A DNA stretch of 38,574 bases, taken from positions 1 through 38,574 of the forward strand of contig JAFGDY010000298.1 in the NCBI GenBank assembly GCA_016931895.1, read 5' to 3'. Source of the DNA: Anaerolineae bacterium. Lineage in GTDB: Bacteria > Chloroflexota > Anaerolineae > 4572-78 > J111. Below are positions 20,635 to 37,636 of the stretch, one piece after another. The notes beneath the pieces were generated by a model that was given only the letters and a program-made list of their open reading frames with translations, ran no database searches and was not told where the DNA came from. Position 1 is the stretch's first letter. Each line of letters opens with the position of its first letter. A program made the position numbers and the translations under genes.

Positions 20635-20636
20635 TT

Positions 20637-21320: not shown

Positions 21321-21499
21321 CAGATAAATCTCCATTCATTAAACCATTTACTCTATTTATGTTTAAGCTTGAATTTCAACTATGCTTCACGCTGTCTCAT
21401 TGGCCCAACAATCAAACGTGGTGTAGACCGCCGGTGTGAAGGTGAATAGATCTCGGAAGCATCCCATGCGTAAGATAACAGACATCACAAGTAATATCA

Positions 21500-21513
21500 T
21501 TAACCTGGGTTAA
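21500..21513. promoter_or_regulatory. Palindromic operator candidate
   Basis: TTAACC-TG-GGTTAA is a perfect 6-bp inverted repeat 180 bases upstream of the flavodoxin gene and just after the Crp-type gene stop. It is too tight to be a terminator (2-base loop) and has the size of a dimeric regulator site. The neighbouring Crp-family protein is the obvious candidate ligand, though its consensus is unknown. Confidence 0.35.
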
Positions 21514-21525
21514 TATTTTGGAAAT

Positions 21526-22378: not shown

Positions 22379-23599
22379 ATGTGGCAATTTCGTTTGAGGG
22401 TTCCTCCAGGCTTTTTGGTTAAAGAATTTATTAACTATGCGTGGCATGATTGGCCTACGGTATCCCACGTTCTTAAGCTGCAATTGGCCCGAGAAACTTT
22501 TAACTGGCGGCATCCGTTTGGGGCAGATGGTTGGGGCGACACAGTGCAGCAGATCAGCCTGCGCCCGACCGATCTGTGCAATTTACGCTGTTGTACCTGC
22601 GGCCAGTGGGGCGAGAAGGGTTATCTGCGCGAACAACCGCTCAAAGATTTAAAGCAGCGCGAATTATCTCTTGAAATTTACAAAAAACTTGTGGACGAGG
22701 TCGTTGAGGCGGGCTGGTCGCCGATATGGTATATTTGGGGCGGCGAGCCAATGCTTTATCCCGACCTGTTTGACTTAATGCGCTATATCGCGGCTCGACA
22801 CATGCCTCTCACCATGGTCACCAATGGGGTCAATGTGGTCAAGCATATTGATGAGATTATAGAAACTTGCCAGGGATTGTGGCTGAGTATTGACGGCCCC
22901 ACCGCCAAAATTCATAACCAACAGCGGCCCGGCGTGTCGCCCAAAGATGACAATTTTAGCGACGTGATGGCCGCGCTCAAAACCATCAGCGCCGAAAAAA
23001 AACGGCAGGGCAGCCTTTATCCCTTTTTGGGGCCAATTACCACCATTAGCAAATACAACGTTAACCACCTGGCCGACATCTACCGGCTCGTTAGCCCCTA
23101 CGCCGATGTCCACACCATTTACCTGGCCTGGTGGATAGATGAACCTGCCGCCCGGGAACACACGGCAGACTTTGAGCGTCGTTTTGGCTTTGCGCCCCAT
23201 AGCCATTGGGGCTGGGTGGGCGACTGGAAAGATTTTGACCACAGCCTTATTTTTGACCAATTTGAAGAAATGTGGCGATTATCAAAAAAACACAATCGCT
23301 GCCCGGCCATTATGTTTCCCAACCTCATCTCGCCGGAGGCGGTGCGGCAATATTATCAAGACCACACGGCCACTTTTGGCTACAAACAGTGTTTCAATAT
23401 TTATTCAACCATAGAAGTGGACAGCAACGGCAACGTTAGCCTGTGCCGTGACTACCGGGATTACGTGATCGGCAATATCAAAACTGACCCGATTACCAAG
23501 ATTTGGCAAAGCGAGGCCGCTCGCCAATTCAGGCGTTCTATCAGCGAAGAAGGTTTAATGCCGGTCTGCCGTCGCTGCTGTGGGTTGATGGGATATTAG
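22379..23599 (+). CDS. Radical SAM/SPASM-domain enzyme
   Basis: This 406-residue protein has the [4Fe-4S]/SAM motif C67-x3-C71-x2-C74 in DLCNLRCCTCG, followed by IWGGEPMLYPD (SAM-binding GGE motif) and WLSIDGP. A C-terminal SPASM-like region (CFNIYSTIEVDSNGNVSLC, then CRRCC) should hold auxiliary Fe-S clusters. The YGKQCFxIYSTIEVxxxGxVxxCRD pattern is common in radical SAM proteins of lipid and polysaccharide clusters. The substrate is unknown. Its stop codon interlocks with that of the converging glycosyltransferase (TTAG at 23596-23599). It stands at the left edge of the lipid gene group and could act on the same product, or could simply be a neighbour. Confidence 0.85.
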   Translation: MWQFRLRVPPGFLVKEFINYAWHDWPTVSHVLKLQLARETFNWRHPFGADGWGDTVQQISLRPTDLCNLRCCTCGQWGEKGYLREQPLKDLKQRELSLEIYKKLVDEVVEAGWSPIWYIWGGEPMLYPDLFDLMRYIAARHMPLTMVTNGVNVVKHIDEIIETCQGLWLSIDGPTAKIHNQQRPGVSPKDDNFSDVMAALKTISAEKKRQGSLYPFLGPITTISKYNVNHLADIYRLVSPYADVHTIYLAWWIDEPAAREHTADFERRFGFAPHSHWGWVGDWKDFDHSLIFDQFEEMWRLSKKHNRCPAIMFPNLISPEAVRQYYQDHTATFGYKQCFNIYSTIEVDSNGNVSLCRDYRDYVIGNIKTDPITKIWQSEAARQFRRSISEEGLMPVCRRCCGLMGY

Positions 23600-24828
23600 G
23601 GAAGTGGCCGGCTGATTTCAACAACCTGGCCGGTCTTGACGTTGACCCGGTATTTAATGCCACGCCAATTCATGGTGAGCAGGTTTTGTTTTACGCTCAA
23701 GGCGGTTTTTAACAAAACCCAGCCGGTAATCAACACCGCCGCGGGCGTGGCTAACCACCAGCGGAGCAGCCGATATTTTTGGTCGGTGGGAGGTACGCTG
23801 GCCGGATTAACGTAGTTACTCAAACTGATCAGCCAACTCTGCAACATCATCAACAACCAAAAGCTCACACTGCCAATTACAGCCGGTAAATTTTGTTGAA
23901 CCAAACCATAAATAAGCACAAATGGCGAAGCAATGGCTAAAAAAATGTAGGGCCAAAACGCCATAATAAACAACCAATATAATCCATTAGCACAAATTTG
24001 CAGGTATTGGAATTGTCGCTCCAACCACTCCACCCCAACCTGAACCGATATGTCGCAGTAGCTCTTAACCGTGCAACTGGGCACATAGCGGCGTTGAATC
24101 CGGTAGCGGTGGAGGGCCTGCATCAAAACCATGTCGTCAACAATAGCGGTAGAGAGATATTCGTCCAGAGCATATTGTTTAATGATGGATTGGCGTAAGG
24201 CCATGCTACCGCCCCAGAGCGCATAAAACCGGTCGTCGGACCGGAAAATATCCAGCGCAGCAGCGACCATCCCGGCCAGGTAGTCACCCCATTGAAAATG
24301 GGCTTTAACAGGCACGCGGCGATACGAGCCGGTGACAGCGCCAATGTTTGGGTCTTGAAAAGGCGCAACCATTTCTTGCAGCCAGGTGGAGTGAGGGTTA
24401 ATATCGGCGTCGGCGAACAAAAAAATATCAGCGTTCACACCCTTCATCCCCTGCAAAATATTAAAAACTTTCTGGGCGCACTGCGTCGCCGGGCCGGCAA
24501 TGCAGAGTTGCACTTGCTCAAATTGCCGGGCTAAAGCGCGTAAAAAAGGCAGCGCCGGATCGCACTCGTCTTCAACCACAAAGATGAATCGCGCCGGGCC
24601 GCCGTAGTCCTGTTGGATAATTCGGTGCAAATTATCTTCAAAATAAGGGTCGGTATGGCCTTTGCACGGCGTAATAACCGCCACCGAAAATTGGCCGGTG
24701 GGGGGATAGGGGGGTGTCCAACGCTGCCGGATGAGATGTACTGTAACCAACCCAACGGCCAGGGTGGCGTAAAACAAAATAGCCGCATAAAATAACAGCA
24801 TAAACATCGCCTTTTGCCTTTGTCGCAT
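23596..24828 (-). CDS. Ceramide-glucosyltransferase-like glycosyltransferase (GT2/GT21)
   Basis: This 410-residue membrane glycosyltransferase has an N-terminal helix (8-30), a cytoplasmic catalytic domain (about 45-280) and three to four C-terminal helices (280-380). Ceramide-GT features in order are PCKGHTDPYFEDNL (D1 region), VEDECDP, the metal-binding FADADIN (139-144), WGGSMALR and the acidic IVDDM (230-233). The GT21 Q/R-x-x-R-W motif is degenerate, reading RQFQY (271-275). The tail MNWRGIKYRV is typical of this group and of HpnI. Glycosylation of a ceramide-like lipid is inferred from neighbours; hopanoid-type or other lipid acceptors remain possible. It is divergent from the N-acyltransferase gene at 24885. 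Confidence 0.78.
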   Translation of the reverse strand: MRQRQKAMFMLLFYAAILFYATLAVGLVTVHLIRQRWTPPYPPTGQFSVAVITPCKGHTDPYFEDNLHRIIQQDYGGPARFIFVVEDECDPALPFLRALARQFEQVQLCIAGPATQCAQKVFNILQGMKGVNADIFLFADADINPHSTWLQEMVAPFQDPNIGAVTGSYRRVPVKAHFQWGDYLAGMVAAALDIFRSDDRFYALWGGSMALRQSIIKQYALDEYLSTAIVDDMVLMQALHRYRIQRRYVPSCTVKSYCDISVQVGVEWLERQFQYLQICANGLYWLFIMAFWPYIFLAIASPFVLIYGLVQQNLPAVIGSVSFWLLMMLQSWLISLSNYVNPASVPPTDQKYRLLRWWLATPAAVLITGWVLLKTALSVKQNLLTMNWRGIKYRVNVKTGQVVEISRPLP

Positions 24829-24833
24829 TATCC

Positions 24834-24839
24834 TATAAT
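24834..24839 (+). promoter_or_regulatory. -10 element in the divergent gap, glycosyltransferase / acyltransferase
   Basis: TATAAT lies 45 bases before the acyltransferase ATG (24885) in a 56-base divergent gap. It probably starts the operon that runs to 30885. No clear -35. Confidence 0.45.
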
Positions 24840-24884
24840 ATTATGCATACCGTCAAATGGTGCTCAGGCTAAGGCAAGAGGCTT

Positions 24885-26015
24885 ATGCTTACTGTTGAAA
24901 AAGTTGATACCTTCTCCCCTAAACAGGTCAAACAATTTGTCAACCTGCCTTATCGTCTATATGCCCACCATCCCCACTGGGTGCCTCCCCTCCGCCATGA
25001 CGCCGCCTTATATCTGAACCGCCGGAAACATTTTTTTTATGACCACTCCGCAGCCGACTTTTTTATCGCCGCCCGGAATGGCCGAGCCGTGGGCCGCATT
25101 GCCGTGCTTGACCACCGTCTTTTTAACAACTATCATCAGACCCGCCAGGCCCAATTTTACCTGTTTGAATGTGAAGATGATCCAGAGGCCGCGACTGCCC
25201 TTTTTGAGCAAGCCTTTGTCTGGGCCAAAGCGCGGGGGTTGAACAAAATCATTGGCCCCAAAGGACTCGGCACGCTCGACCCGTTTGGGATTCTGATTGA
25301 GGGTTTTGAACATCGGCAGATGATGATAATGTCTACCTACAATTATCCTTACTACCAAAATCTGGTTGAAGCGGCCGGTTTTACCAACCAGATGCGCTTC
25401 TCTTCTTACTATCTTAACACCCAAGATTTTCGCGTGCCCAACTGGATTCACAACCTGGCCGAGCAAACCCGGCACAAGAGAGAACTTGAGATAAAAAGTA
25501 TCCGCACCGTGCGCGAAGGTTTGCCGCTGGCCCGGCAGATGGTTGAAATTTACAACCGGGCGATGGTCAACAATTGGGAGTATTACCCCCTACCCGAACG
25601 CGAAATCGCAGCCATTGTGGAATCGTTAAGATTTTTCAATAACCCCCGTTTCCTCAAATTCCTGGCGCATGGACAGGAGATGGCGGGAGCGTTGCTGGTA
25701 ATACCCGATTTGTCGGCCCCTTTACAACGCGCCAAAGGCCGGTTAAATCCCTGGAGCCTGGTTGATTTATATAAAACCATGCGCCGGCCCCAATCCCTTT
25801 TACTGGCCTGGTTTGGCATTTTGCCGCAATTTCGTTTACAAGGCGGTAATGCCCTGATAATAACCGAACTGGAAAAAACGATCCGCGCCAATCCAACCGT
25901 GCAGCACCTGGAATTGCATCAGGTGGCCGATAGCGCCCTCCAGGTGCGGCGAGATTTAGAAATGTTTGGGCTGAAACCCTACAAGGTGCATCAAGTTTTT
26001 GCGAAACAACTATAA
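24885..26015 (+). CDS. YghO-like GNAT-fold N-acyltransferase, ceramide-synthase candidate
   Basis: This 376-residue soluble protein resembles the YghO-type acyltransferase family: FVNLPYRLYAHHPHWVPPLRHD, then RKHFFYDHSAADFFIAARNGRAVGRIA, FFECEDDPEAA-type sequence, GLNKIIGPKG, LIEGFEHRQMMIM-type sequence and NYPYYQNLVEAAGF. Two GNAT-like halves are evident, the second holding the AWFGILPQFRLQGGNAL acyl-donor loop (the R-x-x-G-x-G/A-type turn). Members transfer acyl groups to amines. Bacterial ceramide synthesis is known to use an acyltransferase unrelated to eukaryotic CerS, and this protein is the only candidate N-acylating enzyme in the cluster. It begins a three-gene operon with the B12 radical SAM gene starting two bases after its stop. 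Confidence 0.75.
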   Translation: MLTVEKVDTFSPKQVKQFVNLPYRLYAHHPHWVPPLRHDAALYLNRRKHFFYDHSAADFFIAARNGRAVGRIAVLDHRLFNNYHQTRQAQFYLFECEDDPEAATALFEQAFVWAKARGLNKIIGPKGLGTLDPFGILIEGFEHRQMMIMSTYNYPYYQNLVEAAGFTNQMRFSSYYLNTQDFRVPNWIHNLAEQTRHKRELEIKSIRTVREGLPLARQMVEIYNRAMVNNWEYYPLPEREIAAIVESLRFFNNPRFLKFLAHGQEMAGALLVIPDLSAPLQRAKGRLNPWSLVDLYKTMRRPQSLLLAWFGILPQFRLQGGNALIITELEKTIRANPTVQHLELHQVADSALQVRRDLEMFGLKPYKVHQVFAKQL

Positions 26016-26016
26016 A

Positions 26017-27567
26017 ATGTCCAAATCTATCTACCTCATCAATCCCAGGGCAGATTTTCCCAGTTATTACAGCGCCGAAATTTATACTCATTTCGGCCTG
26101 AGTCCGGTCGCCTATACCGCCGATTTGGCCATAGCTACAGTAGCGGCGCTGGTGCCCGCCGATTTTGAAGTGACGCTATGTGACGAGCAGATTACGCCCG
26201 TCAATCTTAACCACCCCGCCGATTACGTGGGCTTGACCGGCAAAAGCAGCCAGGTAGGGCGTATGATCGAACTGGCCCAACACTTTCAGCAACGGGGCAA
26301 AACCGTCATCATTGGCGGCCCTTTTGCTTCGCTGTCGCCGGAGGTAGTAAGGCCTTACTGCGACATTCTGGTGCGCGGCGAAAGTGAAACCATCGCCCCC
26401 CAACTGTTTGCCAACTTGGAGGCCGGGCGCTGGCAAGCCGAATATATGGGGGCATGGTCTGACCTGCGACAGTCCCCCATCCCGCGCTGGGATTTGTACC
26501 CCAATCATAGCGCCCTGTCGGGCTGCGTGCAAACTTCGCGAGGCTGTCCCTTTGAATGTGAATTTTGCGATGTGATTCAATACGCCGGTCGCCGACAACG
26601 CCACAAACCCGTTGACCAAATTCTGGTCGAACTTGACTCTCTCTATCAACACGGTTATAGCCTGGTATTTATCGCCGACGATAACTTTACCGCCTCTCGC
26701 CGCCGCGCCAAAGAATTGCTCATAGCCTTGCGCAGTTGGAACAATCGCCAACCGGACGGGCGACTCACCTTCATTACCCAACTTTCCATTGACGCCGCGC
26801 ACGAAGACGAAATTCTGCAACTCTGCGCCGAAGCGGGCATCTACTACGTCCTTATCGGCATTGAAACGCCTAACGAGGACAGCCTGCGCGAAAGTAAAAA
26901 ACGTCAGAACTTGGGGATCAACCTGACCGGCCAAATCCAACGTTTTCTGGATTATGGCATTGGCGTGATGGGCGGTATGATGGTTGGCTTTGACGCCGAC
27001 GGCCCGGACATTTTTGAGCGGCAATATCAGTTTGCCATGAACACGCCGATTCCCATCTTTATGTTAGGCGCATTAACTGCTCCACCCTCAACGCCACTCT
27101 ATCAACGTCTGCGGCAAGACAATCGCATCGTGGCTGACATAGAATTTGGCGCAAACACGCCGTGGGAAACAAACATCATCCCTAAACAAATGTCACGCCA
27201 AACCCTGTTTGCCGGATTACGCTGGTTGGGCAACCGCCTGTATCACCCCACCACATTTGGACAACGGGTCAGGCAATTTTTAGACAGCTATCAACCCCCT
27301 CCGTTTAGTGACCGCCCGCACCGGAAACCAAATCAACAGCTTGCCCTGCAAATTATGAAAGTAACTCAAAACGTTACTCGCCTGGGGTCGGCTGAAGCGC
27401 AAATGTTTTTAAACACAGCCCCTGCTGCCATGAAACATCCTGTAGTGCAGGGTGTCTTTTTTAATATAATGGCCCAATACCACCAGATTCGATATATGTA
27501 CCAACAAGGCGGGTTTTGGGAGCCGCAATTGGCCGAACTCAACGCCCCGGATTTGTCAAGGTTTTAA
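26017..27567 (+). CDS. B12-binding radical SAM enzyme, DUF4070 (HpnP-like) type
   Basis: This 516-residue protein begins at ATG 26017, two bases after the preceding stop (a TTG at 25999 is possible). A cobalamin-binding-like domain (about 1-150) precedes the radical SAM domain with C177-x3-C181-x2-C184 (RGCPFECEFC), FIADDNF, IGIETPNEDSL and GGMMVGFD. The C-terminal part (LTAPPSTPLYQRL, about 345-510) matches the DUF4070 type seen in hopanoid C-2 methylase HpnP and archaeal GDGT ring synthases. That subgroup acts on unactivated carbons of lipids. In this operon, with a SPT-type fusion four bases downstream, chain methylation, cyclisation or C-C coupling of a sphingolipid-like molecule is a reasonable guess. 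Confidence 0.82.
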   Translation: MSKSIYLINPRADFPSYYSAEIYTHFGLSPVAYTADLAIATVAALVPADFEVTLCDEQITPVNLNHPADYVGLTGKSSQVGRMIELAQHFQQRGKTVIIGGPFASLSPEVVRPYCDILVRGESETIAPQLFANLEAGRWQAEYMGAWSDLRQSPIPRWDLYPNHSALSGCVQTSRGCPFECEFCDVIQYAGRRQRHKPVDQILVELDSLYQHGYSLVFIADDNFTASRRRAKELLIALRSWNNRQPDGRLTFITQLSIDAAHEDEILQLCAEAGIYYVLIGIETPNEDSLRESKKRQNLGINLTGQIQRFLDYGIGVMGGMMVGFDADGPDIFERQYQFAMNTPIPIFMLGALTAPPSTPLYQRLRQDNRIVADIEFGANTPWETNIIPKQMSRQTLFAGLRWLGNRLYHPTTFGQRVRQFLDSYQPPPFSDRPHRKPNQQLALQIMKVTQNVTRLGSAEAQMFLNTAPAAMKHPVVQGVFFNIMAQYHQIRYMYQQGGFWEPQLAELNAPDLSRF

Positions 27568-27570
27568 ACA

Positions 27571-30500
27571 ATGAATAACCCGCTTCAATCGCGCCAAACC
27601 AAAACCCTGGTTGACCTGTTGCAGCAGCGCGCCGCCGAACATCCCCACCAGCGCGCTTACACCTTTTTGCGCGACGGCGAAACTGACGCCGTTGCTTTAA
27701 CCTACGGCGAGTTAGATCAACGGGCCAGAGCTATTGCCGCCTGGCTGCAACAACAAAAAGTAACCGGGCAGCCGGTATTGCTGCTCTACCCGCCCGGCCT
27801 GGATTTTATTGCCGCCTTGTTTGGTTGTTTCTACGCCGGGGCCATGGCCGTGCCCGCCTACCCCCCGCAATTAAATCGTAATAGCGCCCGGTTGTCGGCA
27901 ATAATGAACAATGCTCAGGCCAAGTTATTTTTGACCAACACCGCCACCATACCCCAACTAGAACGCTGGGCTGGCCAGATACCTCTGCTCAAAACGATGG
28001 ACAGGCTCAACACCGACAACCGGTCTCCTGAATTAGCCGATACATGGTCTGCGCCGGAATTGAAGCCGGATACACTGGCTTTTTTGCAATACACCTCCGG
28101 CTCAACCGCCCTGCCCAAAGGGGTCATGGTGACGCATGCCAACATTATAAACAACCTCAAGCTGGTCATCCAGACCGCCGGTTTTGAACCCGAAAGCCAC
28201 CACGAAGGAGTCAGTTGGCTGCCGCCCTATCATGATTTGGGATTAATTGGCTTTATCTTTCTGGGGGTCTACACCGGGCGACCCTTCACCCTGATGTCGC
28301 CGGTGGCCTTTTTGCAAAAACCCCTGCGCTGGCTGCAAGCAATTTCGCGCACCCGGGCCACGTACAGCGCCGGGCCAAATTTTGCTTATGATCTGTGTGT
28401 GGAAAAAATTACCCCCGCCCAACGCGCCGCACTTGATCTCAGCAGTTGGGAGATTGCCATTGTCGGCGCCGACCCCATTCGTCATAAAACCCTGGCCCGG
28501 TTTGCGGCCACATTTGGACCTTGCGGTTTTCGCAAACAAGCTTTCTATCCCAGCTACGGCATGGCCGAAGCCACCCTGGTCATATCCGGCGGCTTGCAAG
28601 CAGCGTTGCCTGTAACCTGCACGGTGCAAACCGAAGCTCTAAAAAATAATCAGATTATCGTGACCCATGCAGAAGCGCCGGGCAATCAAACTTTAGTAGG
28701 TTGCGGGCGGCCTCTGGCAGAACAAAAAGTAATCATTGTTGACCCGCACACGTTGACCCCCTGCCCGCCGGATAAAGTTGGCGAAATCTGGGTATCCGGC
28801 CCTGGCGTAACTCAAGGTTACTGGCATCAACCAGAAGAAACCACACACACTTTTCGAGCCTATTTGTCCAATCGTGAAGGGCCGTTTTTACGCACCGGCG
28901 ATCTGGGTTTTTTGCAAGATGGTGAGCTATTCATTGCCGGTCGGCTGAAAGACCTGATTATCATTCGGGGCCAAAATTACCACCCGCAAGACCTGGAACT
29001 GACCGCGGCCGCCAGCCATCCGGCTTTACAGCCCACCGGCGGCGCCGCTTTTTCGGTAGATGCCGGCGACGAGGAAAAACTGGTGATAACGTTTGAACTG
29101 AAACGCCGCCAGCGCCAGGCCGATCCGGTTGAAGTGGCCGGGGCTATTCGCCGGGCCATTGCCGCCGAATACGGCCTGCACGTTGAAACGGTGGTACTGC
29201 TCAAACCGGGCGGCCTGCCCAAAACCGCCAGCGGCAAAACCCAACGGTATCTCTGCCGGGAAAAATTCTTGGCAGGAACATTGACTATCCTAAGTGTTGA
29301 TACTTTGAGCCAACCGCCAGCGTCCGCCAGTATGGCTAAAAACGGATTCGTCACTGCCGGTGAGCAAAATCAAACCTCCTTAGCCCAGGCTTTACGAACT
29401 GAAATCGCTCAAACGCTGGGATTATCCCCGGAGATGATTGACCCCCACCAGCCGATGAGCGCCTTAGGCATCGACTCTTTAAAAGCCATTACGCTGCAAA
29501 CCCTGTTGGAAACAAAATATGGCGTCACCCTGTCTCTGGAAACGTTCTTGGAATTGGCCGAATTGAGCATTGCCCAAATCGCGGCTCATCTCGAGGCGGG
29601 AACATTGCCGGTCCAAATCACATCCCCGCCGGAGATGGCTCCACTGAACACGGGTACAGAAATAAACCGCCAGGCAACAAAACAACCGGTCGGCAGTGTA
29701 TTTGACAAAGCGCGCGCGTTTGATCTTATGGATCAAGCCCGCCGGGCAAACCTGATGCCTTATTTCAGAGAATTGACTCAAAACGAAGGCCCCACTTGCA
29801 CTTTTGAAGGGCGGCGAGTGCTGATGTTTGGCTCTAACAACTACCTGGGTCTGACCGTAGACGAACGGGTGCGCCAAGCCGCCGCCAATGCCGCCCTGAC
29901 CGAAGGCCCCAGCCTGACCGGCTCCCGGCTGCTGAACGGCTCAACTCCCCAGCATCGCCTTTTTGAACAAAAACTGGCCGAGTTTTTGGGCCGTGAAGAT
30001 GCGTTGATTTTTACCACCGGCTACCAGGCCAACATCGGCCTGTTGTCGGCTTTGATGACCTCCGATACGACCCTGTTGGTTGATGAACGCTGTCATGCTT
30101 CCATTTACGACGGCGCGTTTGTAGGGCGTTGTAAAATTGTGCAGTTTCAGCACAACGATATGAACGACCTTGAACTCAAACTGCAAAATGTAGCCACTCG
30201 ATCGCCCACAATGGTTATGGCTGACGGCGTGTACTCAATGGAAGGGGATATTGCCAACTTACCCGCCATCAAAGGCCTATGCGACACCCACACCGTACCC
30301 TTAGCGGTTGACGACGCCCACGGCCTGGGTACGTTGGGCGCAACCGGCCGGGGTATTGAAGAACATTTTAACATGCCCGGCGCCGCCGATATTTTGACCG
30401 GCACCTTTTCCAAAAGCCTGGCCTCAATTGGGGGATGGGTGGCCGGAGAGGCCAAAATAATTGATTGGATTCGCTTTTATGGTCGCTCGATGATTTTTTC

Positions 30501-30885
30501 GGCGGCCATTGCCCCACCGTCTCTGGCCGCTGCCGAGACCGCCCTGGAGATTCTTTGCCGGGAACCCTGGCGGGTGAAAAAACTCAATGAAAATGCTGAT
30601 TATTGGCGGACGGGGTTAAATCAACTGGGGTTTGATACGGGTCAATCTAAAACGGCCATTGTGCCGGTGATCATTGGAGACGATTTGAAATGCGCTCAGT
30701 TAGGTCAGGCATTGCTGGAGGCGGGTGTTTATGTGAACGTAGCCGCCTATCCGGCTGTCCCTCGCCATTTGGCTCTGTTGAGAACAAGCGTTATGGCTAC
30801 CCACAGCCGCAGTCAGCTTGACCAGGGTTTGGCTATCTTTGACAGGGTCGGCAAAAAGTTGGGTGTAATTGAAAATACTGCTTGA
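27571..30885 (+). CDS. Fatty acyl-AMP ligase / ACP / serine palmitoyltransferase-type fusion
   Basis: This single chain of 1104 residues has three modules. (1) Acyl-AMP ligase (1-580): YTSGSTALPKG (174-184), VSWLPPYHDLGLIG, YPSYGMAEATL, RTGDLGF and GRLKDLIIIRG. (2) Carrier protein (about 600-675): LGIDSLKA with S636 as phosphopantetheine site. (3) PLP alpha-oxoamine synthase (about 710-1100): NNYLGL, TGSRLLNGST, the substrate-side DDAHGLG (914-920) and the Schiff-base lysine K948 in GTFSKSLASIGG. TFSKS is typical of serine palmitoyltransferase, whereas AONS and KBL usually have TLGKA. Predicted reaction: load a fatty acid on ACP, then condense it with serine (or another amino acid) to a 3-ketosphinganine. 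It lies three bases after the B12 radical SAM gene. Confidence 0.92.
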   Translation: MNNPLQSRQTKTLVDLLQQRAAEHPHQRAYTFLRDGETDAVALTYGELDQRARAIAAWLQQQKVTGQPVLLLYPPGLDFIAALFGCFYAGAMAVPAYPPQLNRNSARLSAIMNNAQAKLFLTNTATIPQLERWAGQIPLLKTMDRLNTDNRSPELADTWSAPELKPDTLAFLQYTSGSTALPKGVMVTHANIINNLKLVIQTAGFEPESHHEGVSWLPPYHDLGLIGFIFLGVYTGRPFTLMSPVAFLQKPLRWLQAISRTRATYSAGPNFAYDLCVEKITPAQRAALDLSSWEIAIVGADPIRHKTLARFAATFGPCGFRKQAFYPSYGMAEATLVISGGLQAALPVTCTVQTEALKNNQIIVTHAEAPGNQTLVGCGRPLAEQKVIIVDPHTLTPCPPDKVGEIWVSGPGVTQGYWHQPEETTHTFRAYLSNREGPFLRTGDLGFLQDGELFIAGRLKDLIIIRGQNYHPQDLELTAAASHPALQPTGGAAFSVDAGDEEKLVITFELKRRQRQADPVEVAGAIRRAIAAEYGLHVETVVLLKPGGLPKTASGKTQRYLCREKFLAGTLTILSVDTLSQPPASASMAKNGFVTAGEQNQTSLAQALRTEIAQTLGLSPEMIDPHQPMSALGIDSLKAITLQTLLETKYGVTLSLETFLELAELSIAQIAAHLEAGTLPVQITSPPEMAPLNTGTEINRQATKQPVGSVFDKARAFDLMDQARRANLMPYFRELTQNEGPTCTFEGRRVLMFGSNNYLGLTVDERVRQAAANAALTEGPSLTGSRLLNGSTPQHRLFEQKLAEFLGREDALIFTTGYQANIGLLSALMTSDTTLLVDERCHASIYDGAFVGRCKIVQFQHNDMNDLELKLQNVATRSPTMVMADGVYSMEGDIANLPAIKGLCDTHTVPLAVDDAHGLGTLGATGRGIEEHFNMPGAADILTGTFSKSLASIGGWVAGEAKIIDWIRFYGRSMIFSAAIAPPSLAAAETALEILCREPWRVKKLNENADYWRTGLNQLGFDTGQSKTAIVPVIIGDDLKCAQLGQALLEAGVYVNVAAYPAVPRHLALLRTSVMATHSRSQLDQGLAIFDRVGKKLGVIENTA

Positions 30886-30919
30886 ATGTCTTGCATTTAA
30901 GGATGTTTGAGTCTAAACG

Positions 30920-31774
30920 TTAAAGCGTTACTTTGGTCACCAACCAGTCGCGCCACCGGTCGGGTAACCGAGCAGCCAACGCCATCAATTTTGCATGCTT
31001 GCCAACCAAGTAACGTGTTTTAGGCCGTTTGGCCGTGAGGGCATGGGCCACAGCCCGGGCCACAATTTCGGGCGGGATCGCGGTCTGTTTTGTGTTAAGG
31101 GCAAACTGGCGAGTCTTTTCCATAGCCTCCTGATAAAGAGCGTAGGCTTGCTCAGGCCACTGGTTTGCCATTTGCTCTGTTTGCGCCAACGACTTATCCC
31201 AAATGGGCGTGGCAATGCCCACGGGTTCAATGATTGAGACGTGAATCTGCCAGGGACGCAATTCCAGCCGCAACGAGTCGGTGAGCGCCTCTAACGCAAA
31301 TTTTGAAGCGGCGTAAGGCCCCAAAAAGGGCGTGGCGATGCGCCCCCCCATTGAACCGATATTTACGATTCGGCCCTGTCCGCACCGTAAAAGCGGAAGA
31401 AAGGCCTGGGTCACAGCCACCTGGCCCAGCACGTTCGCCTCAAACTGCCGGCGTAATTCAGCCACCGAAACAAACTCAAGGGGACCGGCCACAGCAATGC
31501 CGGCATTGTTTACCAGGCCAACCAGATTCAACCGGGCGGTAGCTGCCCACACGGTTTCTGCGGCGGCCATAATTGTCTCATTTTTGGTGACATCCAAAAC
31601 CACAGGCGTCAAGCGGGCCGACGCCCGGTGTCGTAAAACATCGGCATCCTGTTGTTGGCGTATCCCGGCAAAAACTTGAAATCCCCATTGGTCAAGGTAA
31701 ATGGCGCACGCCCGGCCAATACCGCTGGATGCGCCGGTAACGACTACTGCGCTTTGTCTGGCCTGATGTGTCAT
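30920..31774 (-). CDS. Classical short-chain dehydrogenase/reductase
   Basis: This 284-residue SDR has TGASSGIG (13-20), VNNAGIA (N89/N90), S141 in NIGSMGG, and Y154/K158 in PYAASKFALEALTDSLRLEL. The Y-A-A-S-K and EPVGIATP patterns resemble 17beta-HSD and retinol-dehydrogenase-like oxidoreductases that act on hydrophobic alcohols and ketones. The start is ATG 31774, with no good ribosome site; the gene follows the radical SAM gene by 25 bases and is probably coupled to it. It converges with the FAAL-ACP-SPT gene (34-base gap). It could oxidise or reduce the long-chain base or acyl chain; the substrate is not knowable from sequence. Confidence 0.88.
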   Translation of the reverse strand: MTHQARQSAVVVTGASSGIGRACAIYLDQWGFQVFAGIRQQQDADVLRHRASARLTPVVLDVTKNETIMAAAETVWAATARLNLVGLVNNAGIAVAGPLEFVSVAELRRQFEANVLGQVAVTQAFLPLLRCGQGRIVNIGSMGGRIATPFLGPYAASKFALEALTDSLRLELRPWQIHVSIIEPVGIATPIWDKSLAQTEQMANQWPEQAYALYQEAMEKTRQFALNTKQTAIPPEIVARAVAHALTAKRPKTRYLVGKHAKLMALAARLPDRWRDWLVTKVTL

Positions 31775-31799
31775 CAATTATTTGCAATTTTGTGGTTAT

Positions 31800-33062
31800 T
31801 CAATCAACCGACATTACCACTGGCGCTACGGCTGCCGTTGTTTTATTGTCCTCAACCGTTTCCTGGGGCTGTCGCACCGCCGAGAGCAGTCCGCCAAACA
31901 GGCGATACTCATCCAGACGGCAGGAATTGACCAACTTACCCTCGTAAAGGGTCATATCAGGACAATTTTCACACATATCAACCTGCCCATCGGGCAAAAA
32001 ATCCGGACCCTGGATAATGGTGATACTTTGGATGCGCAAACTGTTCAAGAGGCGTCCGGGGCGGCGAATAATATCCGTTAGCCAATGGCGTGCAGTCTGG
32101 CGCACCGTTTTATCCCAGGGCGAAAGGAGGAAGGAAAGAGGGCTTATTTTGTTGCCCAGCATATAAGCCATGTACGTGCCTTTGAACAGGTGATGGCCAA
32201 TCTGGCCTATCTCCATAGCCTTTTTGCCAATAGAACCATACATTGCTTTCTTGGAGCCAATCATGCCGCCCAATAGCCATTTAAAGGAAGTGTGCCGGGC
32301 TGTGCCGCCCAGATAAGCTGCCGCCTCATATTGGGGAAAATTATCCTTGATAACCTGATAAATATCTATGGAAGAGGGCAATTTTTCTTCAAAATGTTCG
32401 CTGATGTAGCTGAGTTGCAAGGCGTCAACTTCCCGGTCACTCTGGTCGCGGGCCGCATACCCCCAATCGGCCGCAACGGTGCGGAACGTGATAAAAACCA
32501 GGCCGTCCACGCGGCCCATATTCGCCTGACCCCAACGCACTACTTCAGGCACTTCTGGCAGGGTAGAGGGGTAAACAGTAGAATTAAAAGTGAGGTGGAG
32601 ACCTCCTTCCGCCGCAATCATATCGGTGTAGTATTGGCGCAATTCGTTCAACTCGGCTTCGGTTTTGCCTGGCCAGTGGGGGCGATTTTGATAGCTGTCA
32701 ATATGAATCGTAAAACCGGCCAGACCGGCCTTTTTTAATTCCCGCAACCGTTCCGGCGTTAACGCTACCCCATTGGTTAAAAGAATAGGCTTGAGGCCGT
32801 TATTGCTGATGAAGGTTACTATCTCATCAATTTGCGGGTGCAGCAACGGCTCACCCCCGGCAATAGATACATTATCCGGGTTGCGCCATTTTTTAAAGAA
32901 AAGAATCTCCGCTTTAACCTCGTCTAATGGTTTGTGATCGGTCAAACGCTGGCGATAACACCCCTCGCAATGGATATTACAAATGTCGGTCACTTCCAGC
33001 CAGGCAATTGGATTATCATTTAAAGACCAGGGGAAACGGTAGAGATTGCGTTTATTGAGCAT
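31800..33062 (-). CDS. Radical SAM enzyme (second in the lipid cluster)
   Basis: This 420-residue protein starts at ATG 33062 (MLNKRNLYRFPWSLND), six bases after GGAGG; the longer open frame upstream lacks support. The SAM/cluster motif is DICNIHCEGC (CxxxCxxC), followed by SIAGGEPLLHP, LLTNGVAL and FTIHIDSYQNRPHWPG. The C-terminus carries CENCPDM and a later SCRLDEY, suggesting an auxiliary cluster rather than a complete SPASM domain. The middle (SKKAMYGSIGKKAMEIGQ) is not recognised. It is divergent from the KDSR-like gene and upstream of the SDR, so both strands of the cluster carry radical chemistry. No precursor peptide is nearby, which argues against a RiPP role. Confidence 0.85.
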   Translation of the reverse strand: MLNKRNLYRFPWSLNDNPIAWLEVTDICNIHCEGCYRQRLTDHKPLDEVKAEILFFKKWRNPDNVSIAGGEPLLHPQIDEIVTFISNNGLKPILLTNGVALTPERLRELKKAGLAGFTIHIDSYQNRPHWPGKTEAELNELRQYYTDMIAAEGGLHLTFNSTVYPSTLPEVPEVVRWGQANMGRVDGLVFITFRTVAADWGYAARDQSDREVDALQLSYISEHFEEKLPSSIDIYQVIKDNFPQYEAAAYLGGTARHTSFKWLLGGMIGSKKAMYGSIGKKAMEIGQIGHHLFKGTYMAYMLGNKISPLSFLLSPWDKTVRQTARHWLTDIIRRPGRLLNSLRIQSITIIQGPDFLPDGQVDMCENCPDMTLYEGKLVNSCRLDEYRLFGGLLSAVRQPQETVEDNKTTAAVAPVVMSVD

Positions 33063-33097
33063 TATTTTCCTCCAAAACACATAAGATGATGCAGGCA

Positions 33098-33157
33098 AGT
33101 ATAACACATTAACGGATGAATGAAACTTTTTGTCCTTCTTTTTGAAACCTCTATAAT
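33098..33157. promoter_or_regulatory. Divergent promoter region, radical SAM / KDSR-like genes
   Basis: On +, TATAAT at 33152-33157 has TTGTCC 16 bases upstream and serves the KDSR-like gene at 33197. On -, TATACT at 33103-33098 lies 36 bases before the radical SAM start. The two half-operons therefore share a 134-base control region. Confidence 0.5.
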
Positions 33158-33196
33158 ACATTTTATTTTTAGCAACCAGATGGCTTGAGGTAATTG

Positions 33197-34024
33197 ATGC
33201 GGTTCCAGCAGCAGCACGTTATCATCACCGGCGGGTCAAGTGGCATTGGCAAAGCCACCGCCAAACTGCTGGCCGCGCAGGGGGCGCACATTTCGCTCAT
33301 CGCCCGCACTCCAAGCAAATTGCAGGCAGCCCGGATGGAGATTGAAGCAGCGCGGGCCGAAGCGCGGCAGCGGGTGGAATCTATCACGGCCGATGTAACC
33401 AACTATAACCAAATGACGACAGCCATCGAAACCGTCATTGAGCAAGTTGGCCCACCCGATGCGTTGATCACCTGCGCGGGGATGGCGCACCCCGGTTATT
33501 TTGCTAAACTCCCCCTGGAAATTTTTGAACAGACCATGGCCGTTAACTACTTTGGCGCGCTTTACGCCATCAAGGCAGTTTTACCGGCCATGCTTAAACG
33601 TGGTCAGGGGCATCTGGTGTTGGTTTCTTCTGGAGCCGGTCTGGTGGGATTTTATGGCTATAGCCCGTACAGCCCGGCCAAGTTTGCCGTGCGCGGTTTG
33701 GCGGAAGCGCTACGGAGTGAACTGAAACCGAGGGGCATCGGAGTCTCCATTGTGTATCCCCCCGATACCGACACCCCCCAGTTGGCGGCTGAAAACAAAA
33801 CCAAACCCCCGGCCACTCAACGCATCACTGCCAGAGCCAAAATACTAACCGCCGACCAGGTAGCCGGGGCTATTGAGCATGGCTTGCATAAACGGACCTG
33901 GCTGATTACGCCCGGTTTGGAAATGAGTTTACTGGCTCGCCTGCACAGCCTGTTGCTACCCGGCCTTAATTGGTATGTTGACCGTCTGATTGCCCGTGTA
34001 GAACGAGAACATAAAGATTGCTAA
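33197..34024 (+). CDS. 3-ketodihydrosphingosine reductase-like SDR
   Basis: This 275-residue reductase has TGGSSGIG (11-18), TCAG (92-95, as in KDSR enzymes that have NCAG rather than NNAG), S145, Y158 and K162. The decisive feature is the C-terminal VYPPDTDTP (186-194), followed by ENKTKPPATQRI, a signature of eukaryotic KDSR/FVT1 and yeast Tsc10-type reductases that convert 3-ketodihydrosphingosine to dihydrosphingosine with NADPH. A hydrophobic C-terminal stretch (LLARLHSLLLPGLNW) may bind membranes. The ATG at 33197 follows GAGG by six bases; the frame's first codon, TTG, is not needed. It starts the KDSR-FAAL-KAS-ACP operon and would act directly on the product of the 27571-30885 fusion. 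Confidence 0.87.
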   Translation: MRFQQQHVIITGGSSGIGKATAKLLAAQGAHISLIARTPSKLQAARMEIEAARAEARQRVESITADVTNYNQMTTAIETVIEQVGPPDALITCAGMAHPGYFAKLPLEIFEQTMAVNYFGALYAIKAVLPAMLKRGQGHLVLVSSGAGLVGFYGYSPYSPAKFAVRGLAEALRSELKPRGIGVSIVYPPDTDTPQLAAENKTKPPATQRITARAKILTADQVAGAIEHGLHKRTWLITPGLEMSLLARLHSLLLPGLNWYVDRLIARVEREHKDC

Positions 34025-34075
34025 CCAAAAAACTGTTACTGTGCCCCTTATCATTGCCGGGCATAGAGAGATATA

Positions 34076-36139
34076 ATGAGCCATTCCTTTAAGCCACCAA
34101 CCCAAGGTGAAACCCTATTGAACCTGCTGCGCTGGCGGGCCAATCATCAATCCCACCAACGCGCCTATACCTTTTTGGTTGACGGCGAAATTGAGGCGGT
34201 CCATCTAACCTATGCCAACTTAGAGCGGCAGGCCCGGGCTATCGGCGCCTGGTTACAACAAAAAAACGCTGCGGGCCAGCCCATTCTTTTACTTTATTCG
34301 CCCGGTCTGGATTTTATTGCGGCCCTGTTTGCTTGTTTTTATGCCGGGGCCATTGCAGTGCCGGCCTATCCTCCCCCCCTTAATCGAAACAGCGCTCGTC
34401 TGGCGGCTATTATGGCCAACACCCAGGCCAAGATATTCCTGACCACAACCGCGATGCTCACCCAAATTCAACGCCAAATGGCAGAAATACCAGCCGTGAA
34501 AGATTTGTCGTGGCTAACCACCGATACCTGGCCGGTAGAAATGGCCGACACATGGGCTGAAGTGAACCCAAAAGCCGATACCTTAGCTTTGCTGCAATAT
34601 ACTTCGGGTTCTACCGCAACCCCCAAAGGCGTTATGGTTACGCACGGGAATATCATCCAAAATCTTGATCGGGTTGTCCAAACTGCCGGCTTTGAGCCTG
34701 ATCGCCACCGCGAAGGGGTCAGTTGGCTGCCACCCTATCACGACCTGGGGCTGATTGGTTTTGTCTTTTTGGGCATTTACTCCGGGCGGCCTTTCACCTT
34801 GATGTCACCGCTGGCCTTTATCCAAAAACCGCTGCGCTGGTTACAGGCTATCTCACGCCTGCGGGCCTCCTACAGCGCCGGGCCAAATTTTGCTTACAAT
34901 TTATGTGTTGATAAAATCACCCCTGAGCAGCGAGCCGAACTTGACCTGAGTTGTTGGAAAATTGCCATTGTCGGCGCCGACCCGATTTGCTGCGAAACGC
35001 TAGAACGCTTTGCCCATACGTTTGCCCCTTATGGGTTCCGCCAACAAGCTTTTTACCCCAGTTATGGCCTGGCCGAGGCCACGCTGGTCGTCTCCGGCGG
35101 TCTGCAATCGGCCTTGCCGGTCACCTGCACAGTACAGGCAGAGGCGTTAAAAAATCGCCGGGTCATTATCACTTCACCCAAAGAAACAGACAGTCAAACC
35201 CTGGTTGGCTGCGGCAGATCATTGGTTGGACAAAACGTGCTTATCGTTGATCCTCAAACTTTGCGCCCCTGCCCGCCGGATCAGATTGGCGAAATCTGGG
35301 TGGCCGGCCCCAGTGTAGCCCGGGGGTACTGGCGCCAACCGGAAGAAACCCAACACACGTTTCAAGCTCGCTTAGCCGGTGGAAACGGCCAATTTTTGCG
35401 CACCGGCGATTTGGGTTTTGTGCAAGAGGGCGAACTCTTTATCACCGGCCGGCTCAAAGATTTGATCATTATCAGGGGCTGCAACTACTATCCCCAAGAC
35501 ATTGAAAAAATCGTCAAAGCCAGTCACCCGGCTCTAGGCCCCCGGGGGGGCGCTGCTTTTTCAGTTGAAATTGATCATCAGGAACAGTTGGTGATTGTTT
35601 GGGAAGTGGAACGCCGACATCGTAGCGTTGATGTTAATAGCGTAGCCGAGGCCGTTCGGGGGGCGGTGGCCCAAACGTTTGAGCTAGAAACTTACGCCGT
35701 GGTATTGCTCAAACCCGGCCATTTACCCAAAACTACCAGCGGCAAAATCCAGCGCTATCAATGCCGAAAACAATTTCTGGAAAACACCCTGCCGGTGATT
35801 GGAATCAACATTCAACCTCAACAAAAAAATTTGCCGCAGGCAAAAACACTGACCGGGGATACGGTTGACCATCCGGGCCATCAACAACTTCAGCAACAAT
35901 TAGAAGAGCAAGTACGCACGCAACTGGCCGAATTTTTGAAAGTTCCACCCGACCAAATAGATTGGCAGCGGTCCATTCAAACCCTGGGACTGGGTTCGCT
36001 GCACGCCACGGCGGTCAAGTATCACCTTGAAGAAAATTTTGGCATCGCCTTGTCACCGGAGATGTTTTTTGAAGACATCACCCTTGGCCAATTCGTTTCT
36101 AAAATTGCCAGCCAAACTACATCCGAGCGAGGAAATTGA
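34076..36139 (+). CDS. Second fatty acyl-AMP ligase fused to ACP
   Basis: This 687-residue paralogue corresponds to the first two modules of the 27571 fusion. It shares long identical blocks with it (VSWLPPYHDLGLIGF, SAGPNFAY, IAIVGADPI, GRLKDLIIIRG) and lacks the PLP domain. The ligase spans 1-575. The carrier domain (about 605-680) has LGLGSLHA, with S641 for phosphopantetheine; the usual Asp before Ser is Gly, so holo-formation should be checked. It probably supplies a second acyl chain, either for N-acylation by the GNAT enzyme or for elongation by the ketosynthase next door. AGAGAG precedes the ATG by five bases, and its TGA overlaps the ketosynthase ATG (ATGA-type coupling). Confidence 0.92.
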   Translation: MSHSFKPPTQGETLLNLLRWRANHQSHQRAYTFLVDGEIEAVHLTYANLERQARAIGAWLQQKNAAGQPILLLYSPGLDFIAALFACFYAGAIAVPAYPPPLNRNSARLAAIMANTQAKIFLTTTAMLTQIQRQMAEIPAVKDLSWLTTDTWPVEMADTWAEVNPKADTLALLQYTSGSTATPKGVMVTHGNIIQNLDRVVQTAGFEPDRHREGVSWLPPYHDLGLIGFVFLGIYSGRPFTLMSPLAFIQKPLRWLQAISRLRASYSAGPNFAYNLCVDKITPEQRAELDLSCWKIAIVGADPICCETLERFAHTFAPYGFRQQAFYPSYGLAEATLVVSGGLQSALPVTCTVQAEALKNRRVIITSPKETDSQTLVGCGRSLVGQNVLIVDPQTLRPCPPDQIGEIWVAGPSVARGYWRQPEETQHTFQARLAGGNGQFLRTGDLGFVQEGELFITGRLKDLIIIRGCNYYPQDIEKIVKASHPALGPRGGAAFSVEIDHQEQLVIVWEVERRHRSVDVNSVAEAVRGAVAQTFELETYAVVLLKPGHLPKTTSGKIQRYQCRKQFLENTLPVIGINIQPQQKNLPQAKTLTGDTVDHPGHQQLQQQLEEQVRTQLAEFLKVPPDQIDWQRSIQTLGLGSLHATAVKYHLEENFGIALSPEMFFEDITLGQFVSKIASQTTSERGN

Positions 36140-37368
36140 TGACCCCAAGAAGGGTAGTGATCACCGGCGGCGGCATCGCCTCGCCGCTGGGTAATGATTT
36201 GGAAACATATTGGGCGCAACTGCTGGGGGGTCAATATGGTATTGCGCCCATCACCACCTTTGATACCTCGGCTTATGCCACCAGGTTGGCTGCCTGTCTT
36301 AACCCGATTCCGAGACCGGCCGGCCTGACTGAACTTGAACAAAAAATGAGTTCAAATTTGTCTATCCTCTCTGTATTTTGCGCGGAACAGGCGATTGCGC
36401 AGGCCAGGCTCGATTTTCCGGCAGAAGAAATTCAGCGCAGCGGGGTGATTGTTGGTTCGGGTTTTCTCAACCTTTATGATCTGGAAGATTATAACCGGAA
36501 TTTTTTTAGGGGTAAGCCCAGCCGGTCTCCCCTGACAATTCCGCTCAATATGGGCAATGCCCCCGCCAGCCGGATTGCCATGAAGTATGGGCTAAAGGGC
36601 ATTGTTAAAAGCGTGAGCACGGCCTGTTCGTCCGGTTTTACGGCAATAGCCGATAGCGTGCTGTTAATTCGAGAGGGGTATCAGGAGGTGATGATTGCCG
36701 GGGGCTGCGACCTGGTGTCGTCGCAGACGATACTCAATGCTTGGGAAGCAATGAGGGTGTTAACCAAAGAAAAAGAAATTCCGGCCCTGGCCTGCCGGCC
36801 GTTTGACCGGGACCGGCGAGGCATTGCCCTGGGTGACGGCGCAGCCTTTTTTGTGTTGGAAACGTATGAGCATGCCGCGCAAAGAGGGGCAACTATCCTG
36901 GCCGAGATTAAAGGTGTTTTCCAAAATTCAGACAGCCTTGACCTGGTTAAACCCGACTCCCAGGAAGAAAGTCGTTGTATTGAACAAACGTTGCAAAATG
37001 CCAACCTTGACCCCGCAGATATTGGCATGATCTTTGCCCATGCCACCGGCACGCGCCTGAACGACACCACCGAATACGAAAGTCTGCATGCCGTGTTTAA
37101 AGAAAGGCTAAAACACATCCCGGTCTGTGGCCTCAAAGCGATGATTGGGCATACTATGGGCGCGTCCGGCCCTATGGCTTTGGCTGCGGCGCTGGGCGCA
37201 CTGGAATCAGGATATTTCTATCCCATTCCCAATCTGGTTAACCTGGAAGAGGGCCTGGATTTGTGCATTACCACTACAGGCCAACAATTAATTTCGGTTG
37301 ATAATATTTTGCTTAACACCTTTGCTTTTGGGGGAATTAATGTGTGTTTGGTTATATCCAAAATATAA
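36139..37368 (+). CDS. FabF-like beta-ketoacyl-ACP synthase
   Basis: This 409-residue thiolase-fold ketosynthase has the catalytic triad C163 (STACSSG), H301 (AHATGTRLND) and H338 (IGHTMGASG). It condenses an acyl-ACP with malonyl-ACP. The ATG at 36139 overlaps the TGA of the FAAL-ACP gene by one base and is preceded by GAGGAA. The terminal NTFAFGGIN block is intact. Compared with housekeeping FabF it has a divergent N-terminal region (FDTSAYATRLAACL) and NNRNFFRG-type insert (here EDYNRNFFRG), as in ketosynthases of secondary lipid clusters. No ketoreductase, dehydratase or enoyl reductase lies nearby, so a single extension or use of housekeeping FAS partners is implied. Confidence 0.92.
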   Translation: MTPRRVVITGGGIASPLGNDLETYWAQLLGGQYGIAPITTFDTSAYATRLAACLNPIPRPAGLTELEQKMSSNLSILSVFCAEQAIAQARLDFPAEEIQRSGVIVGSGFLNLYDLEDYNRNFFRGKPSRSPLTIPLNMGNAPASRIAMKYGLKGIVKSVSTACSSGFTAIADSVLLIREGYQEVMIAGGCDLVSSQTILNAWEAMRVLTKEKEIPALACRPFDRDRRGIALGDGAAFFVLETYEHAAQRGATILAEIKGVFQNSDSLDLVKPDSQEESRCIEQTLQNANLDPADIGMIFAHATGTRLNDTTEYESLHAVFKERLKHIPVCGLKAMIGHTMGASGPMALAAALGALESGYFYPIPNLVNLEEGLDLCITTTGQQLISVDNILLNTFAFGGINVCLVISKI

Positions 37369-37381
37369 AGGGGACAAAGTG

Positions 37382-37636
37382 ATGACAGAACAAGAAATTC
37401 GCACTAAATTGGTGGAAATTTTTGAAGAAGAAGCCAAACTGGATCGGGATGAACTCTTACAGGGACAACCCCTGGCCAATCTCATTGACTCGTTGACTTT
37501 GCTGGAAATAGTGTGCCAAATTGAAGATACTTTTGAGTTAGAAATTGAGGACGAACAAATACCTGAACTAAAAACTTTTGCTGACGTGGTTGAAGGGATC
37601 ACTCGGCTAAAAGGGCCAGATGTACAATCAAACTAA
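37382..37636 (+). CDS. Stand-alone acyl carrier protein
   Basis: This 84-residue acidic protein (MTEQEIRTKLVEIFEEEAKL) has NLIDSLTLLEIV, with S37 as the phosphopantetheine attachment site, followed by helix III EIEDEQIPELKTFADVVEGI. The frame extends 28 codons upstream into the ketosynthase gene, but the ATG at 37382, preceded by an AGGGGAC-type ribosome site, is the sensible start. It differs clearly from the covalently attached ACP domains of the two ligases and presumably serves the ketosynthase 13 bases upstream. It is last in the operon. No clear terminator was found after it. Confidence 0.9.
   Translation: MTEQEIRTKLVEIFEEEAKLDRDELLQGQPLANLIDSLTLLEIVCQIEDTFELEIEDEQIPELKTFADVVEGITRLKGPDVQSN

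Follow-up and report, generated by a model that had tools for sequence, protein, structure and literature searches.

A gene cluster of an Anaerolineae bacterium with a fused acyl loader and serine palmitoyltransferase-clade synthase probably encodes a ceramide-type lipid pathway

Introduction

Anaerolineae abound in anoxic sediments and waters. That they make sphingolipids has so far been inferred from serine palmitoyltransferase (SPT) genes and co-abundance alone. On the basis of SPT genes, members of the class are already predicted sphingolipid producers (PMC11334938, PMC12619533). The DNA considered here is contig 298 of an Anaerolineae bacterium (JAFGDY010000298.1; 38,574 nucleotides, here called the window), which belongs to a genome of 6.06 Mb in 320 contigs with 97% completeness. 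The original prediction for this DNA described positions 23596-37636 as an apparently complete sphingolipid-like pathway with built-in radical S-adenosylmethionine (SAM) chemistry. All the genes it listed are present where it placed them, as intact open reading frames with the expected domains. The cluster probably encodes a ceramide-type lipid pathway, at a probability of about 0.7, and the basis for this is the gene content, a fusion protein, clade placement, conserved residues, and gene subsets that recur in relatives.

A fused acyl loader and SPT-clade synthase

The protein encoded at 27571-30885 is a single chain of 1104 residues that comprises a fatty acyl-AMP ligase (FAAL), an acyl carrier protein (ACP), and an alpha-oxoamine synthase (AOS). 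The AMP-binding domain covers residues ~17-418, the AMP C-terminal domain 461-574, the ACP 606-674, and the oxoamine synthase ~712-1098. The FAAL part scores 252 bits as an AMP-binding domain and up to 434 bits with FAAL models, and the ACP domain carries its attachment serine in LGIDSL. Among solved structures, the oxoamine synthase domain matches the SPT of Sphingobacterium multivorum with 331 bits over 389 residues aligned gap-free, followed by Sphingomonas SPTs (243-260 bits), KBL (231-237), cysteate transferase (213), and AONS (at most 175). The identity of the condensing enzyme as cysteate transferase of sulfonolipid synthesis was rejected by this score.

The residues that bind serine and pyridoxal phosphate in SPT were taken from PMC10196870. 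All ten examined (N52, G80, S81, H138, S185, D210, H213, T241, S243, and K244 in S. multivorum numbering) are identical in the fusion. At the main-chain contact positions Met271 and Phe114 it has Ile and Tyr, which a number of other SPTs also show. The synthase shows GSRLLNG and L-x-R where KBL and BioF show R-x-R. In a tree of 37 sequences it falls within the SPT clade with support of 97/92, KBL and BioF being outside; cysteate transferase and ALAS were compared by score only. The SPT-type condensing enzyme of the original prediction is therefore upheld at the level of clade and serine site. The synthase might nevertheless take alanine or glycine instead of serine, giving a 1-deoxyceramide type or another aminoketone-derived lipid: SPT sites accept both amino acids (PMC10196870), these substrates are inseparable by sequence, and 1-deoxyceramides have been detected in anoxic Black Sea water (PMC11334938). 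Against the full match of the serine-site residues and the placement in the SPT clade, this is an improbable reading.

In the Caulobacter crescentus and E. coli BL21 work, a separate acyl-ACP synthetase (AasR), ACP (AcpR), and SPT are jointly required for 3-oxo-sphinganine (PMC9386255). By its domains, the fusion is predicted to be such an acyl loader (AasR plus AcpR) together with an SPT-clade synthase in one chain. Its FAAL is 32-36% identical to the proteobacterial ligases of Rahnella and P. veronii and 46-62% identical to Chloroflexota FAALs, in a tree rooted on the proteobacterial ligases. Its greater nearness to other Chloroflexota FAALs than to these ligases suggests that the fusion was assembled independently. 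Within the window, the FAAL domains of the 27571 and 34076 proteins are mutual closest relatives at 61%, whereas the SPT domain pairs with that of Anaerolineae bacterium HKST-UBA12 (G200), a member of the same family, and this mismatch is a sign of FAAL duplication or conversion within the cluster.

The FAAL-ACP-SPT single chain was found in two genomes, the present one and G200. When contigs were scanned with narrow peptide patterns from the SPT domains of both fusions, the G200 contig and one distant match were the only returns. The phylum-wide fusion search scored few candidates per genome, so further fusions may occur. Several of the contigs compared end inside clusters, and the trees are small. 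No report of a FAAL-ACP-SPT fusion was found in the part of the literature that was covered. FAAL-ACP-oxoamine synthase fusions are also located at G270:C57 8241-11570 and G251:C2 2732-5995. The synthase of G251 is placed not in the SPT clade but, on long branches, next to human SPTLC2, and the fusion of G270 has that of G251 as its closest relative. These two may have arrived at this architecture separately.

The reductase and its linkage to SPT-like genes

The short-chain dehydrogenase (SDR) encoded at 33194 has TSC10, the fungal 3-ketodihydrosphingosine reductase, as its best solved relative (133 bits; next best 106). It carries a catalytic YSPAK and the YPPDTDTP sequence, and its PPDTDTP...ENxxKP motif is kept in seven of eight homologues inspected. 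Homologues at E<=1e-40 are present in 31 other genomes among 249 Anaerolineae. The homologue lies 17-239 bp from an SPT-like gene in ten genomes (G012, G014, G048, G089, G164, G176, G189, G192, G210, and G220) and 2.2-2.4 kb from one in two more (G031 and G203), and the twelve genomes span four families. This linkage, which is independent of the window, is taken as the strongest functional link of the study, and the 33194 reductase is very probably the partner of the fused SPT-clade enzyme. The KDSR-type assignment of the original prediction is borne out by the TSC10 match and the SPT-adjacent homologues. The reductase that it called eukaryote-like is no odd import, as the same PPDTDTP reductase adjoins stand-alone SPT-like genes across Anaerolineae.

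The second SDR (SDRa) has DHRS9 and 17-beta-HSD1 as its best solved relatives and perhaps acts on an acyl chain. CerR identity was ruled out for either SDR, both of which are classical and not of the extended epimerase type. CerR-like epimerases do occur in G251 and in stand-alone SPT operons. SPT-like and CerR-like genes share an operon in G203:C4, G031:C19, and G002:C22, with canonical bCerS also in G203 and G002. Since G203 and G031 hold a KDSR-type SDR near CerR-like genes, the two reductase types may coexist in some Anaerolineae.

A proposed second acyl module and the candidate N-acyltransferase

Relatives of the ketosynthase (KS) at E<=1e-100 occur in just three of the 249 genomes: this one, G200, and G097. 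The G200 contig has the fused SPT followed contiguously by KS (69%), ACP, and FAAL-ACP. In G097, glycosyltransferases, an N-acyltransferase (NAT) like those of the sister clade described below (40%), FAAL-ACP, KS (56%), and ACP are grouped in the absence of an oxoamine synthase, and the contig ends soon after. An ACP similar to the free ACP of the window comes after KS in both genomes. For the window ACP, the ATG start at 37382 (84 aa) is preferred over TTG at 37298. This recurrence suggests that the FAAL-ACP, KS, and ACP set is a second acyl-chain module, and in the simplest reading it would supply the N-acyl chain.

The protein encoded at 24885 (N-ACYLTRANSFERASE) shows end-to-end homology to YghO and to an SPT-adjacent gene on Rubrobacter and Streptomyces plasmids. 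It is 25.5% identical to E. coli YghO and 28.9% to the SPT-linked Rubrobacter gene over the full length, with E down to 6e-53, and has no Pfam match at E 1e-3. The YghO-like N-acyltransferase of the original prediction thus stands as a member of the bCerS superfamily but not as a canonical bCerS, and the protein is best described as a candidate N-acyltransferase related to bCerS and YghO. The NAT copies of this genome, G200, and G251 form one subclade (100/100) inside the sister clade of canonical bCerS, and these are the three genomes of the order found with FAAL-ACP-AOS fusions. No canonical bCerS copy turned up in the genome itself, and the neighbourhoods of sister-clade NATs outside fusion-bearing genomes show no common partner that explains function.

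The presence of a KS and FAALs beside an oxoamine synthase also fits a secondary-metabolite pathway, in which the KS would extend FAAL-loaded chains and the oxoamine synthase would release an amino-ketone or amino-alcohol rather than a membrane lipid. Precedents are the sphinganine synthases linked to polyketide synthases (PKS) and the prodigiosin-type clusters of ACP, oxoamine synthase, and KS. The PKS and AOS cluster SgaAB yields sphinganines (PMC12134224), a Thioclava plasmid cluster combines ACP, AOS, AMP-binding, and KS genes, and FAAL domains of this type are also part of megasynthases of Chloroflexota, whose open frames have 2907-3250 aa. The patchy distribution of the cluster would also agree with secondary metabolism. 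On the other hand, multidomain PKS and nonribosomal peptide synthetase genes are absent from the cluster, which contains a KDSR-type reductase and a bCerS-superfamily N-acyltransferase, and in G097 the KS stands beside a NAT on a contig that has no oxoamine synthase. A secondary-metabolite role is thus given a small chance.

Radical SAM enzymes and the glycosyltransferase

The B12 radical SAM enzyme encoded at 25999 has its closest match (62%) in the N-terminal portion of a G251 protein of 1610 residues. This protein (G251:C2 13629-18461) consists of B12 radical SAM, FAAL, ACP, and luciferase-like monooxygenase parts; its gene adjoins NAT, glycosyltransferase, and ABC/FtsX-type permease genes, and the FAAL-ACP-AOS gene is in the same cluster. 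Because the G251 relative is fused to a FAAL-ACP, the comparison points to an action of the B12 enzyme on ACP-bound acyl chains. Carbon methylation is common among B12 radical SAM enzymes.

The second radical SAM enzyme, rSAM2, belongs to a family conserved in 16 of 150 Anaerolineae. SPT-like genes are present in 15 of these 16 genomes as compared to 65 of the 134 others (p = 0.0004, kinship uncorrected). A profile built from 13 rSAM2 sequences places tetraether synthase (Tes) at the top among solved structures, with 53 against 27 bits. Each of the 13 also matches the model of the Tes family, in the core only, and rSAM2 of the window reaches 40 of the 450 bits of the cut-off, with the core aligned and no full-length match. 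It is accordingly classed by its profile as a probable distant relative of tetraether synthase and not as a Tes. The single-sequence predicted fold of rSAM2 was uninformative (mean pLDDT 31). For the B12 enzyme, the lipid-tailoring role that the original prediction gave to the radical SAM enzymes gains from the G251 fusion. The membrane-spanning lipid it proposed as a possible product has the weak link between rSAM2 and tetraether synthase as its one basis.

At 53 bits, the glycosyltransferase (GT) is above the cut-off of Pfam GT21 (21.7 bits), and it scores 83 bits with the HpnI model, whose cut-off is 310. The signature of GT21 ceramide glucosyltransferases is D, D, D, (Q/R)xxRW. The window enzyme has DAD and VDD, and RQFQY at the place where RxxRW would be expected.

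Two or three unrelated groups might also lie side by side here: one for the sphingoid base, one for fatty acyl chains, and a remainder of radical SAM and glycosyltransferase genes that belong to neither. The GT and the first radical SAM enzyme, rSAM1 (22379), are unconserved, and rSAM2 homologues are mostly in other neighbourhoods with no constant partner, one of them lying 2.3 kb from an SPT-like gene (G127). The contiguity of fused SPT, KS, ACP, and FAAL-ACP in G200 as well, the position of NAT and B12 radical SAM near the FAAL-ACP-AOS gene in G251, and the co-occurrence of rSAM2 with SPT-like genes argue against this. Moreover, the NAT and B12 radical SAM genes overlap, and the latter stops 3 bp before the fusion gene. 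Since relatives also have portions of the set grouped, the gene adjacency is judged to exceed chance, and a mere juxtaposition of unrelated groups appears quite unlikely.

Proposed pathway

In the proposed ceramide-type pathway, the FAAL of the fusion would turn a free fatty acid into acyl-AMP and hand the acyl group to its own ACP. The SPT-clade domain would then join acyl-ACP and L-serine to form 3-ketosphinganine. For this first step, from loading to condensation, the homology is strong. With acyl-ACP as the SPT substrate, the CoA pool would be bypassed. The 33194 reductase would give sphinganine. The FAAL-ACP 34076 would load a second acyl chain, which the ketosynthase and free ACP would extend or handle, and the N-acyltransferase 24885 would link it to the amine. 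More tentatively, the B12 radical SAM enzyme could alter an ACP-bound chain, C-methylation being the simplest change, and rSAM2 could carry out a further chain modification. The attachment of a sugar by the GT21-like enzyme is a weakly indicated last step. A larger outcome is doubtful, namely a ceramide, perhaps glycosylated, whose carrier-bound chains are C-methylated by the B12 enzyme and joined or changed in some other way by the Tes-related one, with a membrane-spanning ceramide as the extreme case. To our knowledge, no lipid of this radical-SAM-altered type has been associated with a gene set.

Several observations weigh against the ceramide-type pathway. The fusion does not reach the NCBIfam SPT equivalog cut-offs (412 of 640 and 365 of 500 bits), and is for this reason called an SPT-clade enzyme and not a certified SPT; these models are narrow and lineage-specific, and the cut-off is an annotation threshold. 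The 33194 SDR stays below the NCBIfam KdsR cut-off at 109 of 400 bits, with the other SDR higher at 161. The NAT lies outside the clade of SPT-linked canonical bCerS, in a sister clade separated by a 100/100 split, and two further sister-clade paralogues are present elsewhere in its own genome with no sphingolipid genes nearby. The GT has no relative at E<=1e-40 in 249 Anaerolineae, and rSAM1 none at E<=1e-60 in 150. In view of the NAT, GT, and rSAM1, the term complete in the original prediction is too strong. Since the G251-type fusion carries a non-SPT oxoamine synthase, the architecture alone is no proof of sphingoid output, and the B12 radical SAM partner in G251 belongs to this non-SPT fusion. 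In addition, a same-genus relative (G221) is without the cluster, and the neighbourhood survey suggested by the original prediction found recurring subsets in G200, G251, and G097, but the complete eleven-gene set solely in this genome.

Locus layout and flanking genes

The eleven intact genes (Table 1) lie between 22379 and 37636, and their intergenic distances range from -17 to +56 bp. At 52.1%, the G+C content of the cluster is like that of the remainder of the window (51.9%). A first plus-strand run holds the N-acyltransferase, B12 radical SAM, and fusion genes, and a second holds the KDSR-type SDR, FAAL-ACP, ketosynthase, and ACP. The two runs are separated by two minus-strand genes, the second SDR and rSAM2. 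At the left edge are the GT21-like glycosyltransferase and the SPASM radical SAM enzyme rSAM1. The rSAM1 gene is just outside the range of the original prediction and has a tail-to-tail overlap of 4 bp with the GT gene.

Directly left of the cluster (20089-22125), the window encodes an HXXEE protein, a CRP-type regulator, and a flavodoxin that apparently carries a twin-arginine signal. An open reading frame at 18729-19364 (minus strand) resembles a transposase remnant as judged by eye. An RNA 3'-terminal phosphate cyclase fragment at 1702-2160 matches the profile end only and is probably truncated.

Table 1. Predicted genes of the cluster, with positions in the window
Feature	Position	Strand	Basis
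rSAM1, radical SAM/SPASM enzyme, cluster membership uncertain	22379..23599	+	Pfam Radical_SAM + SPASM; CNLRCCTC
Membrane glycosyltransferase, GT21/HpnI-like, candidate head-group glycosyltransferase	23596..24828	-	PF13506 GT21
N-acyltransferase (NAT), bCerS/YghO superfamily, sister clade	24885..26015	+	Homology and tree
B12-binding radical SAM enzyme with DUF4070, candidate acyl-chain C-methylase or similar	25999..27567	+	Pfam; CPFECEFC
FAAL-ACP-SPT fusion	27571..30885	+	Domains, alignment, tree
Second short-chain dehydrogenase (SDRa), predicted	30920..31777	-	YAASK catalytic motif; solved relatives DHRS9, 17-beta-HSD1
rSAM2, radical SAM enzyme, probable distant relative of tetraether synthase	31800..33161	-	Family profile
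Probable 3-ketosphinganine reductase, KDSR type	33194..34024	+	TSC10 best match; PPDTDTP...ENxxKP
Second FAAL-ACP protein	34076..36139	+	Domain matches; 61% to FAAL of fusion
FabF-type ketosynthase (KS)	36136..37368	+	Domain matches; Cys/His/His motifs intact
Free acyl carrier protein	37382..37636	+	PP-binding 28 bits; DSL attachment serine

Comparison with known systems

As a single protein, the loader and SPT-clade synthase offer a compact test object for the formation of 3-ketosphinganine from free fatty acid and serine. The SPT-reductase linkage provides a clean marker for ceramide genes in Anaerolineae. For unusual chain chemistry, concrete candidates are the B12 enzyme, through its link to acyl-ACP, and the family related to Tes.

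A close parallel is the AasR-AcpR-SPT system (PMC9386255), which uses a ligase, a dedicated ACP, and SPT to convert free fatty acid to 3-oxo-sphinganine. On Rahnella and P. veronii plasmids, genes for FAAL, CerR-type epimerase, ACP, SPT, and YghO are neighbours, so that an N-acyltransferase of the YghO/bCerS superfamily is nearby, as in the window. In contrast, the window has all three predicted activities in one chain and a KDSR-type SDR in place of CerR. The stand-alone SPT operons of Anaerolineae (PMC11334938) share with it the SPT clade and the PPDTDTP reductase family beside SPT; they differ in having a separate SPT of ~400 aa, and some carry CerR-like and canonical bCerS genes. The G251 and G270 fusions have the same domain order, and G251 shares NAT, B12 radical SAM, and a second FAAL-ACP with the window, but their oxoamine synthases differ from that of the window, as noted above. 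The SgaAB cluster of Pseudomonas (PMC12134224) similarly pairs an oxoamine synthase with ketosynthase chemistry. Its PKS, SgaA, is iterative, whereas the window has FAAL loading and a single FabF-type KS. With Tes/GDGT-MAS, the likeness is confined to the radical SAM core of rSAM2, the rest of the protein being unaligned. As far as the searches reach, the new features are the FAAL-ACP-SPT single chain with its G251/G270 counterpart bearing another synthase, the class-wide SPT-KDSR linkage, the association of a second FAAL-ACP/KS/ACP module with NAT, and the links of the radical SAM enzymes. The cluster presents a known pathway in a new layout rather than a pathway of a new kind.

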